Shown here piece by piece: positions 5,361-15,977 of a DNA stretch of 64,000 bases. The stretch comes from Acidobacteriota bacterium. Lineage in GTDB: Bacteria; Acidobacteriota; Terriglobia; Bryobacterales; Bryobacteraceae. Numbering within the stretch: the first letter of the stretch is position 1; every line of letters begins with the position of its first letter. The DNA lies in contig VFZY01000006.1 of the NCBI GenBank assembly GCA_016870915.1, positions 1 through 64,000 of the forward strand, written 5' to 3'. The translations under genes were made by a program, and so were the position numbers. The notes under the pieces are model-generated. The model was not told the DNA's origin and ran no database searches. It saw nothing but the letters and a program-made list of their open reading frames with translations.

Positions 5361-5393
5361 CTTTCACAAGAATTTCACAACAGTTTCACAGGG
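5361..5393 (+). promoter_or_regulatory. Three TTTCACA direct repeats at 11-bp spacing (PhoB/OmpR-type site)
   Basis: TTTCACA occurs at 5362-5368, 5373-5379 and 5384-5390, each copy exactly 11 bases after the last with 4-base spacers. Tandem 7-base boxes repeating every helical turn are the binding layout of PhoB/PhoP and other OmpR-family response regulators. The array ends 37 bases before the start codon of the first TIGR03437 gene. The regulator is not identified and none of this family is seen in the window. Confidence 0.5.
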
Positions 5394-5427
5394 TTCGGGT
5401 CAATTGATGGGTGAAAGGGAGTAGACT

Positions 5428-6801
5428 ATGAACACAGAGCTGTCTCGATTTGCTATGAATAAATCCATTTGGATGTTCGGCGCTACGTGTGCGCTGACGC
5501 TGGTGGCCTTACCTGCCCTGGGGTACAGAGAAGGCCCACCGGCAGGTGTGACGGGCGCGCCCGGGAACAGGACTTGCGCCCAGGCCGGATGCCACCCTGG
5601 CACGGCTGCGGCTGGCACGAACGTCATCAACCTTTCTGCTGCCGGGGGCGCCACCACCTACGCGCCGGGCAGCGGCAAGATTCGGATGATGCTCCGGATT
5701 GTGGACTCCCAGGGGGTTCGTTTCGGATTTCAGGCGACAGCGCGGCAGGGAACCGGAGACACGACGCAGTCTGGACGTCTCGATGCTGCCGATACGCGGA
5801 CTTCCGTGTTGTGCGGAAACGATTCGGACCGGCCGAGTGCCGGTTGTCCCGCTAGCGCTGCGCACGAATACATCGGGCACACGAACGCTAATTCCACGAA
5901 TTCGTTCAGTTTTGATTGGACTCCGCCGGCAACCGACGTCGGACCGGTTTCGTTTTACATCGCGGCCAATGCGTCGCGTGGGAGCCAGAACAACTCCCAG
6001 ATCTACGCGCTCAAGATAACGTTTACCCCTGCGGCGGGCGGTGGTGGTGGCCCCCGGCCCACGATTCCGACTGGTGGCGTGATCACCGCGAATCAGTTCG
6101 GTGGCTTCCAGTCGCTCTCCCCGGGAGCATTGATTGAGATCTACGGGTCGAATCTGGCGCCGCGCACCGCCAACTGGGACTCTGCTTTCCAGGGCGGGCG
6201 TGCGCCTACCTCGCTGGAAGGCGTCAGCGTGACCATCAACAACCAGCCTGCCTTCATCGCGCTGGTAGCGCCGGGCCAGATCAACGCCTTGGTACCAGCC
6301 GGGGTGGGCGTCGGGCCCACGACCCTGCGGGTGACCACGGCCGCCGGTTCGAGTGACAACTTCAGCGTGACGGCGGCCGCCCGCACGCCGGGGCTGCATA
6401 CCCACCCGGCCTTCCGTTCCGGCAACACGCAGTATGTTGTGGCCTACCATACGGACCGGGCGTTCGTCGGCCGGACTGGACTGGTTGCGGGTGCCGCCAC
6501 GCGTCCCGCAAAGCCAGGCGACAGCATCGAGATCTACGGATTGGGCTGGGGCGCCACGGACCCGGATGTGGTGCCGGGGAACCTTACGCCAGGCAGTCCG
6601 CTTCATAGAGCGCCAAACGTAACGGCGCGTTTCGGTGAAACCCCGGCTACGGTGCAGTTTGCCGGCCGGAGCCCGGGATTGGCCGGTGTCTATCAACTCA
6701 ACCTGGCGGTTCCCAGCGTCGCCGATGGCGATCATCAACTGGTGGTCGAGATTGATGGCGTCCGGGTGCAGCAGCAACTCTCAATTACAGTACAAAGGTG
6801 A
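5428..6801 (+). CDS. Secreted Reeler-like (choice-of-anchor V) protein with TIGR03437 domain
   Basis: 457 residues. The start at 5428 has an AGGGAG ribosome site six bases upstream; a signal peptide ends near ALPALG (about residue 32). The N-terminal half (about 35-205) matches the choice-of-anchor V/Reeler-like fold and opens with CAQAGCHPG, a CX4CH motif that could hold a c-type haem. After a glycine linker (AAGGGGGP) comes a TIGR03437 domain (about 215-457) with typical motifs such as IEIYGSNLAP, APGQINALVP and PATVQFAGRSPGLAGVYQLN. This C-terminal domain is known mainly from Solibacter relatives and its role is unknown. The stop overlaps the GTG start of the next gene, a paralogue. Likely exported and surface-exposed. 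Confidence 0.8.
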   Translation: MNTELSRFAMNKSIWMFGATCALTLVALPALGYREGPPAGVTGAPGNRTCAQAGCHPGTAAAGTNVINLSAAGGATTYAPGSGKIRMMLRIVDSQGVRFGFQATARQGTGDTTQSGRLDAADTRTSVLCGNDSDRPSAGCPASAAHEYIGHTNANSTNSFSFDWTPPATDVGPVSFYIAANASRGSQNNSQIYALKITFTPAAGGGGGPRPTIPTGGVITANQFGGFQSLSPGALIEIYGSNLAPRTANWDSAFQGGRAPTSLEGVSVTINNQPAFIALVAPGQINALVPAGVGVGPTTLRVTTAAGSSDNFSVTAAARTPGLHTHPAFRSGNTQYVVAYHTDRAFVGRTGLVAGAATRPAKPGDSIEIYGLGWGATDPDVVPGNLTPGSPLHRAPNVTARFGETPATVQFAGRSPGLAGVYQLNLAVPSVADGDHQLVVEIDGVRVQQQLSITVQR

Positions 6802-8165
6802 CATCAGTGAAGAGACTATCAAGGTACCTCCTTGCCCTGAGCCTGGCCGCATTACCGGCCGGGCTGTTCGGATTCAGCACGGGTTCTCCCGCGCGCCGTA
6901 CGGGTGCGCAGGTGGACGGTGGCGGCGATTGTGCCGGCTGCCATCGCACCTTTGCCCCGGCGAACTCAAACAGCGCCGGACGCTTGCAGGTGATCGCGGC
7001 GGACTACCTGCCGGGCGTACGGCAGCGGATCCGCGTGACCGTTTCTCACCCTGACTCCCGCCGCTGGGGCTTCCAACTGGCAGCGCGCCAGGCGGCCAAC
7101 CCCATCATGCAATCGGGTGTCTTCGTCCCGTCCATGGAAGTGCAGGTGTTCTGCGACGATCCGGGGAACGTCCGGAATCCTGCGCCCTGTTTCGGCGAGC
7201 GCGAGTACGCAACTCACCGTCAGCCAGCCACTACCCAGGGCGGCGCCAGCGGCAGCCGGACGTTTGACGTCGATTGGGTGCCGCCGATCGACGCCAGCGG
7301 CGATGTCGTGCTTTACGCCGCCGGAAACGCGGCCGATGGCACCGGAACCAACGCCAATGACCATATCTACACCACTTCGGTGACCATTCGCCGCGCGGCC
7401 GGCGGCGCCGCGCCGGCCATCAGCGACGCCGGCGTCCGGTCGATCTTCAGCGGTGCCCAGGGCGTTACGCCGGGCGGCTGGGTGGAGATTTACGGAACGA
7501 ACCTGGCCCGCTCCACGCGGACCTGGGACGCGGGCGATTTCAGCAACGGGCGCACCCAGCTTGACCTGGATGGCGTGCGGGTGTTCATCGGCGGCAAGCA
7601 GGCCGCCGTCGGCTATGTGAGCCCGACGCAGGTGAACGCCCAGGTGGCAATCGATGCCATGGAAGGCCCTGTGCCCATGGAATTGATTGGGCCGGGTGGC
7701 CGTTCGAACCCCATCGCGGTCAACATGGCCCGGCTGCGCCCCGCGGTCTTTGCCGGGGAGCAGTTCCGGCGCGGCGGCGTCCAGTACCTGTCGGCCCTCA
7801 TCGCCGGCGGGGGTCCCCCGGTCTGGGTGGGCCCGGAAGGACTGGTCCCCGGACTCACGACGCGTCCGGTACTGGCGGGCGAGGTGATCACCTTCTTCGG
7901 AACCGGCTTTGGTCCCACGACGCCTCCGGTGGCAGCCGGCACCATGGCCCCCGGCCAGAATCCGGCGATGGTGGCCGGCCGGGTTCAGGTTCGTTTCGGC
8001 GAGACTCCCGCGACGGTCCAGTTTGCCGGTTTGTCGCCTGGTTTCGCGGGTTTGTTCCAGTTTAATGTGACCGTTCCCACGGTGGGTCCGGGCGATGTCC
8101 GGATCAGTATTGAGGTGGACGGCGTTGCGGTGGCCCAGAATGTGTCCCTGATGGTGGGCCGCTAG
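6798..8165 (+). CDS. Second secreted Reeler-like/TIGR03437 protein, tandem paralogue
   Basis: 455 residues, same architecture as the gene before it: signal peptide (about residues 1-25), a Reeler-like domain starting with DCAGCHRTF (a standard CXXCH haem motif), then a TIGR03437 domain with WVEIYGTNLARS, VGYVSPTQVNAQV and ETPATVQFAGLSPGFAGLFQFN. The GTG at 6798 overlaps the upstream TGA; a second GTG at 6807 is an alternative. Translational coupling suggests both products are made together. The two haem-like motifs differ (CX4CH versus CXXCH), which may mean only this copy is a true cytochrome. A strong terminator follows. Confidence 0.8.
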   Translation: MTSVKRLSRYLLALSLAALPAGLFGFSTGSPARRTGAQVDGGGDCAGCHRTFAPANSNSAGRLQVIAADYLPGVRQRIRVTVSHPDSRRWGFQLAARQAANPIMQSGVFVPSMEVQVFCDDPGNVRNPAPCFGEREYATHRQPATTQGGASGSRTFDVDWVPPIDASGDVVLYAAGNAADGTGTNANDHIYTTSVTIRRAAGGAAPAISDAGVRSIFSGAQGVTPGGWVEIYGTNLARSTRTWDAGDFSNGRTQLDLDGVRVFIGGKQAAVGYVSPTQVNAQVAIDAMEGPVPMELIGPGGRSNPIAVNMARLRPAVFAGEQFRRGGVQYLSALIAGGGPPVWVGPEGLVPGLTTRPVLAGEVITFFGTGFGPTTPPVAAGTMAPGQNPAMVAGRVQVRFGETPATVQFAGLSPGFAGLFQFNVTVPTVGPGDVRISIEVDGVAVAQNVSLMVGR

Positions 8166-8266: not shown

Positions 8267-9028
8267 GTGATTCCACGCGCCTTCTGGCTGGTTCTGCCCT
8301 TCACGGCCTGGGCTCAAACCGCGCCGCGGTACTCGGCTGAGGGGCTGGTGCACGCAGCGTCGAGCCTGGGGGGGCCGCTGGCGCCGAATACTTTGGCCAC
8401 GCTCTATGGAACAGGCCTGGCGCAGGCGGCCCGGGGTCTCCTGCCCGGGGATCTTGCCGGTCCGGTGATGCCTTCGGTGCTGCCGGGCACCGGCGTCCGG
8501 GTGTCCGTCGGGGGCCGGCAGGCGCACCTGCTGTTCGTCTCGCCAGGCCAGATCAACTTCCTGATTCCAAGCGACTTGACCCCTGGCGTTCGGAACCTGC
8601 AGGTGGGCTGGAACGGTTTGACGGGCCCGCCGATCCCATTGACCGTTGAGGAGGCTGCGCCGGAGGTCTTCCATTGGGACGGCTACGTGGTGGGGCAGCG
8701 GTTCGACGGTTCCGTGGCCAGCCGGACCGAACCCGCGCGGCCGGGGGAGGCGTTGACGGTCTGGGCCACCGGCCTGGGAAGGACCGTGCCGCCGGCCATC
8801 TACGGACAGGTCGCGCAAGGGGCTGCCGCGCTGGAGCGTTCCGGGTTCGTGGTGCTGCTGGACGGCGTGGCCGCCCCGGTTTCCTACGCCGGGCTCGCAC
8901 CGGGGTTTGCGGGGCTTTATCAGATCAATCTGCGGGTTCCGGAGTCGGCGGGGGATTGGCCGGTGATGCGGTTGGGCTTTCCGGATGGGATGAGCCGGGC
9001 CGCGGTACGGCTACCGGTAAGACGCTGA
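8267..9028 (+). CDS. Short secreted TIGR03437-domain protein
   Basis: 253 residues from a GTG start, made almost only of a signal peptide (cleaved near TAWAQT) and one TIGR03437 domain. Diagnostic stretches are LATLYGTGLAQA, LLFVSPGQINFLIP and YAGLAPGFAGLYQINLRVP. Unlike its two upstream relatives it has no Reeler-like domain and no haem motif, so it is either a single-domain family member or a truncated copy that has kept its own signal peptide. It lies downstream of a terminator and must use its own promoter. Function unknown. Confidence 0.75.
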   Translation: MIPRAFWLVLPFTAWAQTAPRYSAEGLVHAASSLGGPLAPNTLATLYGTGLAQAARGLLPGDLAGPVMPSVLPGTGVRVSVGGRQAHLLFVSPGQINFLIPSDLTPGVRNLQVGWNGLTGPPIPLTVEEAAPEVFHWDGYVVGQRFDGSVASRTEPARPGEALTVWATGLGRTVPPAIYGQVAQGAAALERSGFVVLLDGVAAPVSYAGLAPGFAGLYQINLRVPESAGDWPVMRLGFPDGMSRAAVRLPVRR

Positions 9029-9056: not shown

Positions 9057-10964
9057 ATGTCTGACACTACCTCAGGGATCGAACGGAAGCTTCAGGAGTT
9101 GCCGCACACTGCATTGGTGGCCGAACGTGTTGACCTAATGGTCCAACTGGCGTGGCGGTCCCGTGAGAACGAAGAGTGGGACCGGGTGAAGGAACTGGCC
9201 ACCACGGCGCTCGAACTATCGCGAGCCGCGGGCTACCAGGCCGGGATCTCAGGCGCTCTGCGAAATCTGGCCTTCAGGGAATACATCCAGGGCGACTTGG
9301 CCGCGGCCACGGCTGGGGCTCAGGAGGCCGTGGATGCCGCCCAGAGGGCCGGCCGGGCGCGTGATGAAGCGGAGTCGCGCGGTGTTCTGGCGATGGTCCA
9401 TTGGACGCTGGGCAACATGGACATTGCGTTCGACGAAGGAACCCAGGCCCTGCGTTACTTCGAAGAGGTGGACCGGGACCCTGAGCCGCTGGGCTGGATG
9501 TATTCGATTGGCGGCATGATGCGGTTCAGCGTGGGGGATGTCGAAGGGGCGTTGGGCCAGCAGCATAAGGCTCTGGAACAGTTCAAGTCCGCGGGTCAGC
9601 GGTTGGGTGAGGCCCGGTGCTACACCGGCATGGGCACCTGCTACCAGGCGATGGGCCGAATGGAGGAGGCGGAAGGCTATTTCCAGCGGAGCCTGGAGCT
9701 GTATCGCGAACTGGGCAACGCCATGGGGATCTCGCGCGCCCTCTGCGATCTGGGGGCTCTGTGTCACGAATCGGGCCGGGACCAGGAGGCGTTGGCGCTT
9801 GAACTGGAGAGCCTCGATATCCGGGAGCGGCGTGGCAGCCGGCAGGCGATGACGACGAACCTGATTCACCTGGGCCGGCTTTACCTGAAGCAGCGTGCGT
9901 TCGGCGAGGCGCGGCGGGTGCTCGAACGCTCCCTGGCGATTGCCAACGAACTTGGCACCAAGCCGAAGGTATTCCAGGCGCATCAGGTACTGGCCGAGGT
10001 CTGCGAGGGGGAGGGCCTCTTCGAGCAGGCACTGACACACCTGAAGGCCCATCAGCAGGTGCGCGAGCAGGTATTCAGCGACGAGACGGCGCTGAAGGTT
10101 CGCAACGTTGAACTGCGTATGGCGATAGCGGCATCGCGGCGGCAGGCTGAGCTGGAACACAGTAAGAACGAGGAACTGGAAGAGAAGAACCGCGAACTGG
10201 CACGGCTGCTGGACGAACTGCAATCGACGCAGGCGCAACTGGTGCAGTCCGGCAAGATGGCGGCGCTGGGCAATCTGGTGGCGGCCCTGGCGCACGAGAT
10301 GAACTCGCCGCTGGGCGCGATTCAGAGTTCCAACGATGTGGCCCGGCGGGTGATTGCGCGGATGGGAAGCGGGGCACCCGACGGGTTGGCCAAGTCCCTC
10401 GATCTGCTTGCGCGGAACGAGGAGGTGATCGGGGTGGCCAGCGAGCGCATCGCCCAACTGATGAGGAGTCTGAAGGGCTTTGCGCGCATCGACCAGGCGC
10501 CGTTCGAACAGGTGGATCTGCGGCAGGCCATTGACCACACCCTGGTTCTGATGGAACCCCGATTCAGGAACCGGATCACCGTGCGGCGCAGCCTGGAAGA
10601 GATTCCTCCGGTGTTCTGCTACGCGGCGGAGATCAATCAGGTGCTGATGCACGTGATTGAGAATGCATGCGATGCGATTGACGGGACCGGGTGCATCGAC
10701 GTGTCAACGGCCGTGGCGGACGGTGAAATCCGGATCGTGGTGTCGGACACGGGGCGGGGCATTGCCGAAGACCGGCTGCCGGCGCTGTTTCTGCCCTCCA
10801 TCCGGCGCGATGGGGCTCGGGTGCGGGCCGCCGTGAGCCTGTTCACCTGCCAACAGATTGTCCAGAAGCACCGCGGTGAGATTCGCGTGGAGAGCCGGGC
10901 TGGACGGGGATCGAGATTCACCATCGCACTGCCCGCCGAACTGGCCACGCGCGCCGTGGCTTGA
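9057..10964 (+). CDS. TPR-repeat sensor histidine kinase (cytosolic)
   Basis: 635 residues with no membrane segment. Residues about 1-350 are helical repeats of TPR type (for example LGEARCYTGMGTCYQAMGRM), 360-400 is a charged coiled coil, then HisKA with phospho-acceptor His413 in ALAHEMNSPLG. The HATPase domain has an N box (INQVLMHVIENACDAIDG), a G1 box (VVSDTGRGIAEDRL) and a G2-like GRGSRFTIALP. Expected role is to sense a protein or ligand partner through the TPR domain and phosphorylate an unlinked response regulator; none is encoded nearby. A -10-like TATCCT lies at 9038-9043, close to the start codon. Confidence 0.88.
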   Translation: MSDTTSGIERKLQELPHTALVAERVDLMVQLAWRSRENEEWDRVKELATTALELSRAAGYQAGISGALRNLAFREYIQGDLAAATAGAQEAVDAAQRAGRARDEAESRGVLAMVHWTLGNMDIAFDEGTQALRYFEEVDRDPEPLGWMYSIGGMMRFSVGDVEGALGQQHKALEQFKSAGQRLGEARCYTGMGTCYQAMGRMEEAEGYFQRSLELYRELGNAMGISRALCDLGALCHESGRDQEALALELESLDIRERRGSRQAMTTNLIHLGRLYLKQRAFGEARRVLERSLAIANELGTKPKVFQAHQVLAEVCEGEGLFEQALTHLKAHQQVREQVFSDETALKVRNVELRMAIAASRRQAELEHSKNEELEEKNRELARLLDELQSTQAQLVQSGKMAALGNLVAALAHEMNSPLGAIQSSNDVARRVIARMGSGAPDGLAKSLDLLARNEEVIGVASERIAQLMRSLKGFARIDQAPFEQVDLRQAIDHTLVLMEPRFRNRITVRRSLEEIPPVFCYAAEINQVLMHVIENACDAIDGTGCIDVSTAVADGEIRIVVSDTGRGIAEDRLPALFLPSIRRDGARVRAAVSLFTCQQIVQKHRGEIRVESRAGRGSRFTIALPAELATRAVA

Positions 10965-13747: not shown

Positions 13748-14334
13748 CAGTATCGAGCCGCGATGCCGGTCATTCGCGCGACGGCGAAGCTGATGCCGCG
13801 CAGATTTCGTTCGGGCGGCACGCCTGGAATTTCCCGCGCGTAGCCCGAGGTGAGAAAGACCGGGGCGCCCCCGCGCATTTCATGCCGGAATGTTGTGGTG
13901 GGGCACGCCCAATCGACATCGACGGCGATGACGCCAGGAAGTCCAGCCGGCAAGGGCGGTCCGGCGGGTGTCATGGCCGGGGCAAAAACAGGGCCCGATG
14001 CCGCGGCCAGCAACGCTTCAAAACGCGGCCGGTGTTCCGGGTTGCTGGTGCCGAGGCTCAAGTTAATGAACCGGGCGCCTCGGGCAAAACACCAGTGGAG
14101 TGCCCGTTCCAGGGTGTCGATGCTGGTGACCAGTTGCCGGTCGAAGACCTTGGCGATGAGCAGGCGGGAACCGGGTGACCATTCCTCGATCAGCCCGGCG
14201 ACAGCGGTGCCATGGCCAATTCCATCCAGCCAGGTGCCGCCGGTGAACGTTTCCGCGGCTTCGATCTCGCCCACGTGGGGATGGCCCGGGTGGATGCCGC
14301 TATCGACGATGGCGATGAGAGGAGGCGTGCTCAT
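13678..14334 (-). CDS. qhpE: Subtilisin-like serine protease of the QHNDH operon (leader peptidase)
   Basis: 218 residues, a compact S8-family protease with no signal peptide or propeptide. The triad is visible: Asp11 (IVDSGIHPG), His41 (GIGHGTAVAG) and Ser182 (GISFAVARMTG, the GTSxA-like box). The usual oxyanion Asn motif is not obvious (APAMTPAGPP takes that place). In Paracoccus QhpE removes the leader of the cross-linked gamma subunit in the cytosol before export. Its position as last gene here, overlapping the exporter gene stop by an ATGA, supports that role. Gene name is assigned from motifs and operon context. Confidence 0.85.
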   Translation of the reverse strand: MSTPPLIAIVDSGIHPGHPHVGEIEAAETFTGGTWLDGIGHGTAVAGLIEEWSPGSRLLIAKVFDRQLVTSIDTLERALHWCFARGARFINLSLGTSNPEHRPRFEALLAAASGPVFAPAMTPAGPPLPAGLPGVIAVDVDWACPTTTFRHEMRGGAPVFLTSGYAREIPGVPPERNLRGISFAVARMTGIAARYCHSEAAARAFPSSLISLNSTLPK

Positions 14335-15977
14335 GGCGCGGCCCCCAGCACGGCGCGCTGGGTGGCCAGGCCGAGCAGCGCCGGGCGGTGCGTCACGAGG
14401 ATTGCCGTGCGCCCCTGAAGTGCCTGGGCCAGTTGATCGCGAAGGGCGAGTTCCGTTTGCTCATCGAGCGCGGACGTGGGTTCATCCAGGATTACGATGG
14501 GGGCGTCGCGCAGCAGGGCGCGGGCAATCGCGATGCGCTGGCGCTCTCCGGCGGAGAGGGCGAGGCCACGATCGCCCGCGATCGTATCGTAACCCTGCGG
14601 CAGGGCCGCGATGAAGTCGTGGATCGCCGCCGCGCGAGCGGCCGCCTCGATCCGGCTCTGCGAGGCCGCGGGGTCCGCGTAGGCGATGTTCTCTCGCAGC
14701 GAGGCGTGAAAGATGAGCGGCGTTTGTTCCACGGTGGCAATCGCGGTGCGAAGGTAGGTGAAGGGCAGGCCTCGCAGATCGTGCCCATCCAGCAGGATGC
14801 GGCCCGCTTGCGGATCCTCGAAACGAAGCAGGAGATCGGCGAGCGTGCTCTTGCCCGCCCCCGTGGGCCCGGTGACGGCGCAGATGGCGCCGGCCGGGAT
14901 GTGCAGGCTGAAGTGCGAGAGCACCTGATCGCGGCCCTGTTCGAAGCTTACATCCTCAAAGCGGATCTCGCCTTGCGGCGGCGGCAGGGCGGCACTCTGC
15001 GCGGGCTCGGCGACGGCGGGGTGGGTATCGAAAAGATCGGTCACACGCCGCAGGGAAACCGCGCCTGTCACCAGGCTGGTGTGCAGCCCCATCAGGCTCT
15101 GCACGGGCGCGAGCAGGCGCAGATGATAGGCCATGAACGCCACCAGCGCGCCAATGGTCAGCTTGCCCTCGATCACACGCGCCCCACCCACGGTGAAGAC
15201 CACCGCCGTGGCGATGGTCAGGATGGCGCCAGGGAAGAGGCCGGCTTTAAGATTGGCCCGCTGCATCAGCAGCAAAGCATCCAGAAACAGCTGGTTGTGC
15301 CGGGTGAAACGGGCGCCTTCGGCGCGCTCACGATTCGACGCGGCCACCAGGCGGTGAAGCGAAAGAGTCTCGATGAGGAATGTTCCGATGCCGGCGCTGC
15401 GTTCACGAACGGCGGCGGTGTGTTGCGCCAACTCGGCCTGGCAGCGGCGGAGTGCCCAGACGCTGGCGGGGATGAGCGCGACACTGGCCAGCGAAAGCAC
15501 CGGGTCAAGCAGCAGCATCACGATCAGGCTGCCGGCCAGGAACAGGACATTGGATATCGCCGCCAGAATGGTGTCGGCCGCGATTCGTTGCACCTCACCG
15601 ACATCGTTGTTGAGGCGTGAAACCAACTCACCCAGGCGCCAGCCCGCGAATTGGCGTGGGGACCATCGCAGTAGATGCGCGTAGAGCGCGGAACGCATGT
15701 CAAAGAGGATGGCCGCCGAAGTCTTTGTATAACGCAGGCTGGCCGCGGCCCCCAGGAGCGACGCGGCCAAGGCGGCGCACACCATCCAGGCCGCGATACG
15801 GCCCAACGCACCCAGATCGTGCACCGTCAGGGCATCGTCAATCAGCAGCTTTGAAAAGTAGGGCTGCAGCAGACCGACCGACGTACCCAGGAGAGAAAGA
15901 CACCCCACCAGGGCCAGTTGCGGAAGGTAGGGCCGCAGGAACGGCATCACCCGTCTGTATGGAGCCAGGGGGGTCAC
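14331..15977 (-). CDS. qhpF: ABC exporter of the QHNDH operon
   Basis: About 548 residues: an N-terminal six-helix exporter domain followed by an ATPase domain with Walker A GPTGAGKST (near residue 370), signature LSAGERQRIAIARAL (near 475) and Walker B IVILDEPTSALDE. I start it at the GTG at 15977, which overlaps the upstream stop (GTGA); a GTG at 15998 is also open. QhpF is thought to export the processed, thioether-cross-linked QhpC to the periplasm, because QhpC has no Sec or Tat signal. The half-transporter would act as a homodimer. Confidence 0.88.
   Translation of the reverse strand: MTPLAPYRRVMPFLRPYLPQLALVGCLSLLGTSVGLLQPYFSKLLIDDALTVHDLGALGRIAAWMVCAALAASLLGAAASLRYTKTSAAILFDMRSALYAHLLRWSPRQFAGWRLGELVSRLNNDVGEVQRIAADTILAAISNVLFLAGSLIVMLLLDPVLSLASVALIPASVWALRRCQAELAQHTAAVRERSAGIGTFLIETLSLHRLVAASNRERAEGARFTRHNQLFLDALLLMQRANLKAGLFPGAILTIATAVVFTVGGARVIEGKLTIGALVAFMAYHLRLLAPVQSLMGLHTSLVTGAVSLRRVTDLFDTHPAVAEPAQSAALPPPQGEIRFEDVSFEQGRDQVLSHFSLHIPAGAICAVTGPTGAGKSTLADLLLRFEDPQAGRILLDGHDLRGLPFTYLRTAIATVEQTPLIFHASLRENIAYADPAASQSRIEAAARAAAIHDFIAALPQGYDTIAGDRGLALSAGERQRIAIARALLRDAPIVILDEPTSALDEQTELALRDQLAQALQGRTAILVTHRPALLGLATQRAVLGAAP

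Follow-up and report, generated by a model that had tools for sequence, protein, structure and literature searches.

The window, by which we mean the whole stretch of 64,000 nucleotides analysed here, carries a run of + strand genes headed by one for an exported protein with choice_anch_V and TIGR03437 domains (5428-6801), the first gene of the operon proposed below. A preliminary description of this DNA had assigned the gene to TIGR03437, a large family of paralogous domains, and its product does pass that model (Soli_cterm) at 183.9 bits against a cut-off of 29.05; its N-terminal domain passes choice_anch_V (NF041895) as well, at 70.1 bits against a cut-off of 42. A second choice_anch_V and TIGR03437 gene, whose product has a CAGCH motif (6798-8165, + strand), overlaps the first by 4 bp, and is followed on the same strand by a third TIGR03437 gene (8267-9028) and, 28 bp further on, by a gene for a TPR-repeat histidine kinase (9057-10964), which is possibly co-transcribed with the TIGR03437 genes. 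In its 5428-5657 part the first gene encodes CAQAGCH, i.e., CX4CH, an unusual spacing where the paralogue at 6798 and the relatives have CxxCH, and haem attachment at this motif is therefore doubtful.

Ahead of this gene run, in the gap between divergent genes, lie three + strand copies of TTTCACA, at 5362-5368, 5373-5379 and 5384-5390, each 11 bp from the one before. The three perfect copies in exact 11-bp steps reported in the preliminary description are thus present (its 5361-5393 is the same stretch plus a small margin). Taken singly, the 7-mer is ordinary, with 4 occurrences in the window against 3.7 expected; when TTTCACAN4TTTCACA was sought with up to two mismatches, the window yielded 2 overlapping matches where 0.14 would be expected. 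In the whole 6.6-Mb genome, searched by pattern and in stretches, matches with fewer than two mismatches were confined to these two overlapping window copies. In their arrangement the copies resemble OmpR/PhoB-type operators, which are direct repeats at a fixed step of 10-11 bp, upstream of or overlapping the -35 element.

On the other side of the gap, the minus strand between 3819 and 5334 holds overlapping short ORFs in shifting frames, with pieces resembling a CheA-type chemotaxis kinase (e.g., DPIMHMVRNSIGHGIE). A Pfam search of these minus-strand ORFs recognised none of them, and the pieces look like a decayed gene or assembly frameshifts. In several relatives (L010, L012, L017, L021 and L022) the homologue of the window gene is preceded by a gene whose product ends in an LSTTARK-like motif and may be a MutY- or NUDIX-type protein; the upstream neighbour of the window copy is a different one. 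We do not favour the minus-strand gene (from about 5334 downwards) as the target of the boxes, because at other sites the boxes are directed towards the gene that follows them.

We searched 200 genomes of the family for the motif. The exact form TTTCACAN4TTTCACA was not enriched by itself (7 matches versus 5 in controls), and in the family as a whole TTCACA pairs stepped by 11 bp were no commoner than those stepped by 10 or 13 bp, among the matches listed. As for position, 36 of the 58 TTCACAN5TTCACA sites were intergenic, compared with 16 of 40 control sites (spacings 4 and 7), and 27 of the 58 lay upstream of a gene in the same direction, compared with 8/40 (Fisher P 0.0097), gene calls in the relatives being made by a simple frame-and-GC heuristic. 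These positions served as a test of the scatter inside genes that the preliminary description had named as evidence against an operator. About 15 of the 27 genes downstream of a box encoded exported products, as judged by eye from their N-termini, versus none of the 8 control genes, and several had CxxCH motifs, one set having ten.

A candidate regulator was traced through one relative, G028, where an OmpR-family response regulator shares its cluster with two TTYACA pairs. The first occupies the gap on the upstream side of the regulator gene and faces a divergent receptor-type gene; the second precedes the gene for a Haem_bd protein (PF14376) that closes the cluster. The window’s own genome has an orthologue of this regulator (76% identity) on the minus strand of contig C88, at 14213-14881. 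The cluster is conserved there: besides the regulator it encodes a membrane HAMP histidine kinase, a lone receiver protein and two exported proteins, one of which is coiled-coil and porin-like; no box was found when this C88 cluster was searched. One gene beyond the histidine kinase (L343:1-1999), two exported single-CxxCH proteins are encoded, one of them with a weak cytochrome match.

Close orthologues of the C88 regulator (E below 1e-90) occur in about 124 of the 200 family genomes, and TTHACA-N5-TTHACA stands beside the regulator gene at 17 of the 30 best orthologue loci, 11 times upstream of the regulator and directed away from it, and 6 times just downstream, before the porin-like gene. 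In the 104,772 bases of these 30 loci, no TTHACA pair was present at spacings 0-4 or 6-12, and the reversed control likewise gave 0. A hold-out of 40 further loci contained 11 TTHACA pairs at spacing 5, distributed over 10 loci, with none at other spacings and 0 in 14 control loci. Combined, 27 of 70 loci carry the box, associating the operator with this regulator; boxed loci within one genus do not count as independent cases, and binomial figures for them take no account of relatedness, though the first 17 cover about 11 genera. Within 14 genomes bearing the regulator, TTYACAN5TTYACA occurred 53 times versus 8 for the reversed control. The preliminary description had proposed head-to-tail dimers of the PhoB/OmpR family; the OmpR-family part of this proposal gains support from a repeat that accompanies an OmpR-family gene at a single spacing and also stands beside genes resembling the window gene, and the PhoB part is not supported, as set out below.

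The genome encodes 6 proteins with a PF00486 domain, 5 of them response-regulator-like, and the boxes could conceivably be read by one of the four other OmpR-family regulators, with a similar recognition sequence. Related regulators have similar repeats, and boxes stand before exported genes in two genomes with no close C88 orthologue (G018 and G103), and the motif may thus have a second reader. Against this stands the difference between the loci of the other four regulators (C10, C81, C94 and C101), in which we found no TTHACA pair, and those of the C88 orthologues, and we regard a different reader of the window’s boxes as rather unlikely.

One of these four, the C101 protein, is PhoB-like: it scores best with the PhoB model, reaching 233.6 of 296.2 bits and thus staying below the cut-off, resembles the regulator beside phoU in G018, and is distinct from the box-associated C88 regulator. 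The preliminary description had suggested phosphate among the possible signals, and were the triple a Pho box read by C101, the operon would answer phosphate starvation. The form agrees, as PHO boxes consist of 11-nt direct repeats with a 7-nt core, e.g., GTTCACC in Streptomyces (PMC4415409), and in E. coli, Bacillus and Streptomyces PhoB or PhoP binds at least two such repeats, each with 7 conserved positions and 4 loose ones, head to tail (PMC4415409). Unlike PHO boxes, however, the boxes of this lineage show no link to phosphate genes. A search of the window’s genome gave no match to PstS (TIGR02136) or PhoU (TIGR02135), and no TTHACA pair was found near phoU or C101. Moreover, what appears to be the family’s own Pho box, GTAAC-N6-GTAACA upstream of pstS (L060, L062, L065, L066, L069 and L070), likewise has 11-bp repeats but another sequence. 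With PstS and PhoU not detected, a different pstS box in the family and a separate PhoB-like protein on C101, we rejected the phosphate reading, which we judge very improbable.

The nearest solved relative of the C88 regulator, which we take up again here as the preferred reader of the boxes, is MtrA. The best NCBIfam model for the C88 copy is that of MtrA (NF040689), at 228 bits and below the 300-bit cut-off, and because of this combination it is, by sequence, best described as MtrA-like rather than as an MtrA. The operator of MtrA in the MtrAB system of Actinobacteria likewise spans 17 bp as a direct repeat with 5 bp between the half-sites, the half-site being GTnAC in Streptomyces, and the Mycobacterium site is a repeat of GTCACAgcg (PMC13189361, PMC2945938). 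In contrast, the half-site here, TTHACA, starts with T and not G, and the targets differ. The loci differ as well: the mtrA-mtrB-lpqB order was not found at C88-type loci, where no lpqB-type neighbour was recognised, and the neighbours are instead the receiver, the porin-like protein, the exported protein and the HAMP histidine kinase.

The sites also share a promoter grammar, in which the box is followed, after 8 bp, by a CGACT-like -35 and, after a further 17 bp, by a TANNNT -10. With positions numbered from where the second half-site ends, CGACT stands at +9 in 9 intergenic sites, and 16 of the 65 sites other than that of the window have TANNNT at +31/+32; at other positions the rate is about one per cent each. 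Since A and C recur in these sites where a third half-site, in degenerate form, would be in phase, the triple looks like the full form of the box, which the window would then hold in perfect form. In the window, the + strand hexamer TAGACT (5422-5427) lies at +31, counted as in the relatives from where the last half-site ends, and is our putative -10. The place of the relatives’ CGACT-type -35 is taken by GTCAAT (5399-5404, + strand, +8 from the last half-site), a poor match; such a -35 may be expectable for an activated promoter, yet it weakens the case.

If TAGACT is the -10, transcription would start near 5434 and translation of the first gene would probably begin not at the first ATG, at 5428, but at the + strand ATG at 5457-5459, a proposed start that draws on the position of the -10 and on the signal-peptide lengths of homologues. 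The ATG at 5428 is preceded by a good ribosome site (AAAGGGAG), and the gene may alternatively start there, from a promoter with its -10 near 5400. At several sites (L196, L206, L254, L378 and L379), only about 6-11 nt lie between the proposed -10 and the start codon, a closeness that suggests leaderless or nearly leaderless transcripts in the regulon. A second site in the window’s genome, near the end of contig C170 (C170:14606; L381:3607, G000), reads TTTACAACAAATTTACA, and has ACGACT and TACCCT in the exact -35 and -10 places; within the sequence examined, only a short ORF follows it.

Exact triples turned up in 76 stretches of other genomes, in unrelated contexts, and 36 of the 81 exact triples counted had identical spacers, as simple tandem repeats do. 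These counts would fit a functionless short tandem repeat in the window, arisen by chance or slippage. The spacers between the window copies differ, however (AGAA, then ACAG), the motif is tied to the regulator locus at one spacing only, and the orthologue of the window gene in G028 has kept the pair, its orientation and the +31 hexamer. When the pair and hexamer were sought together, as TTCACAN5TTCACAN31TANNNT, the 200 genomes gave 3 matches and the control 0, and two of the three matches stand before this gene. We give a repeat devoid of function scant credence.

Some of the genes behind the box in relatives resemble the window gene. In four genomes of one genus (G071, G150, G188 and G212), the box lies between the regulator and a divergent choice_anch_V-type gene with CxxCH; the G071 protein passes the choice_anch_V model, and in it a TIGR03118 domain replaces TIGR03437. 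In G028, aside from the homologue of the window gene, a second choice_anch_V-type gene carries a close variant of the pair, and in G176 the box precedes a further choice_anch_V and TIGR03437 gene. In G006 the gene for a DmsE-family decahaem cytochrome lies on the far side of the box from the regulator. Other boxed genes encode a haem-binding protein, an ECF sigma factor and other exported proteins. Boxes stand before ECF-sigma-like genes at L346, L347, L379 and L380, in four genomes of three genera, one of these genes being confirmed by a model, and this placement suggests a sigma-factor cascade below the regulator.

Taken together, these results make it likely, in our judgement, that the three TTTCACA copies serve as the operator for a lineage-specific, MtrA-like response regulator of the OmpR family, whose copy in this genome lies on C88. 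In the mechanism that we propose, the regulator, once phosphorylated, would bind in head-to-tail fashion, with each 11-bp repeat taking up one subunit and all subunits on one face of the helix, occupying about -72 to -44 from the transcription start, and would recruit RNA polymerase to the poor promoter downstream, with its weak -35 and its TAGACT -10 at 5422. The operon switched on in this way would encode the two choice_anch_V/TIGR03437 proteins, the third TIGR03437 protein and the TPR kinase. Binding, activation and the action of the C88 copy on the window promoter are steps that we infer. As for the signal, our guess is a respiratory or envelope cue, because of the cytochromes among the targets; iron reduction has been proposed as a role of decahaem cytochromes in Acidobacteria (PMC3669403), the group to which the genome would belong judging by its TIGR03437 family. 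A respiratory cue is for this reason a fair guess, and no more.

More tentatively, a two-component system of this lineage might control haem-type proteins exported to the surface (choice_anch_V/TIGR03437 proteins, decahaem cytochromes and haem-binding proteins) together with ECF sigma factors. Such a circuit would be dedicated to surface electron transfer or respiration and would include TIGR03437 proteins in its machinery, a possibility to which we give less than even weight. Our literature search turned up neither a described regulon of this sort in the lineage nor a paper naming the TIGR03437 model. TIGR03437 proteins and decahaem cytochromes are now tied to a promoter grammar, to a 17-bp operator of defined form and to one specific regulator gene, and the control of TIGR03437 surface proteins becomes a testable question with a named candidate regulator.
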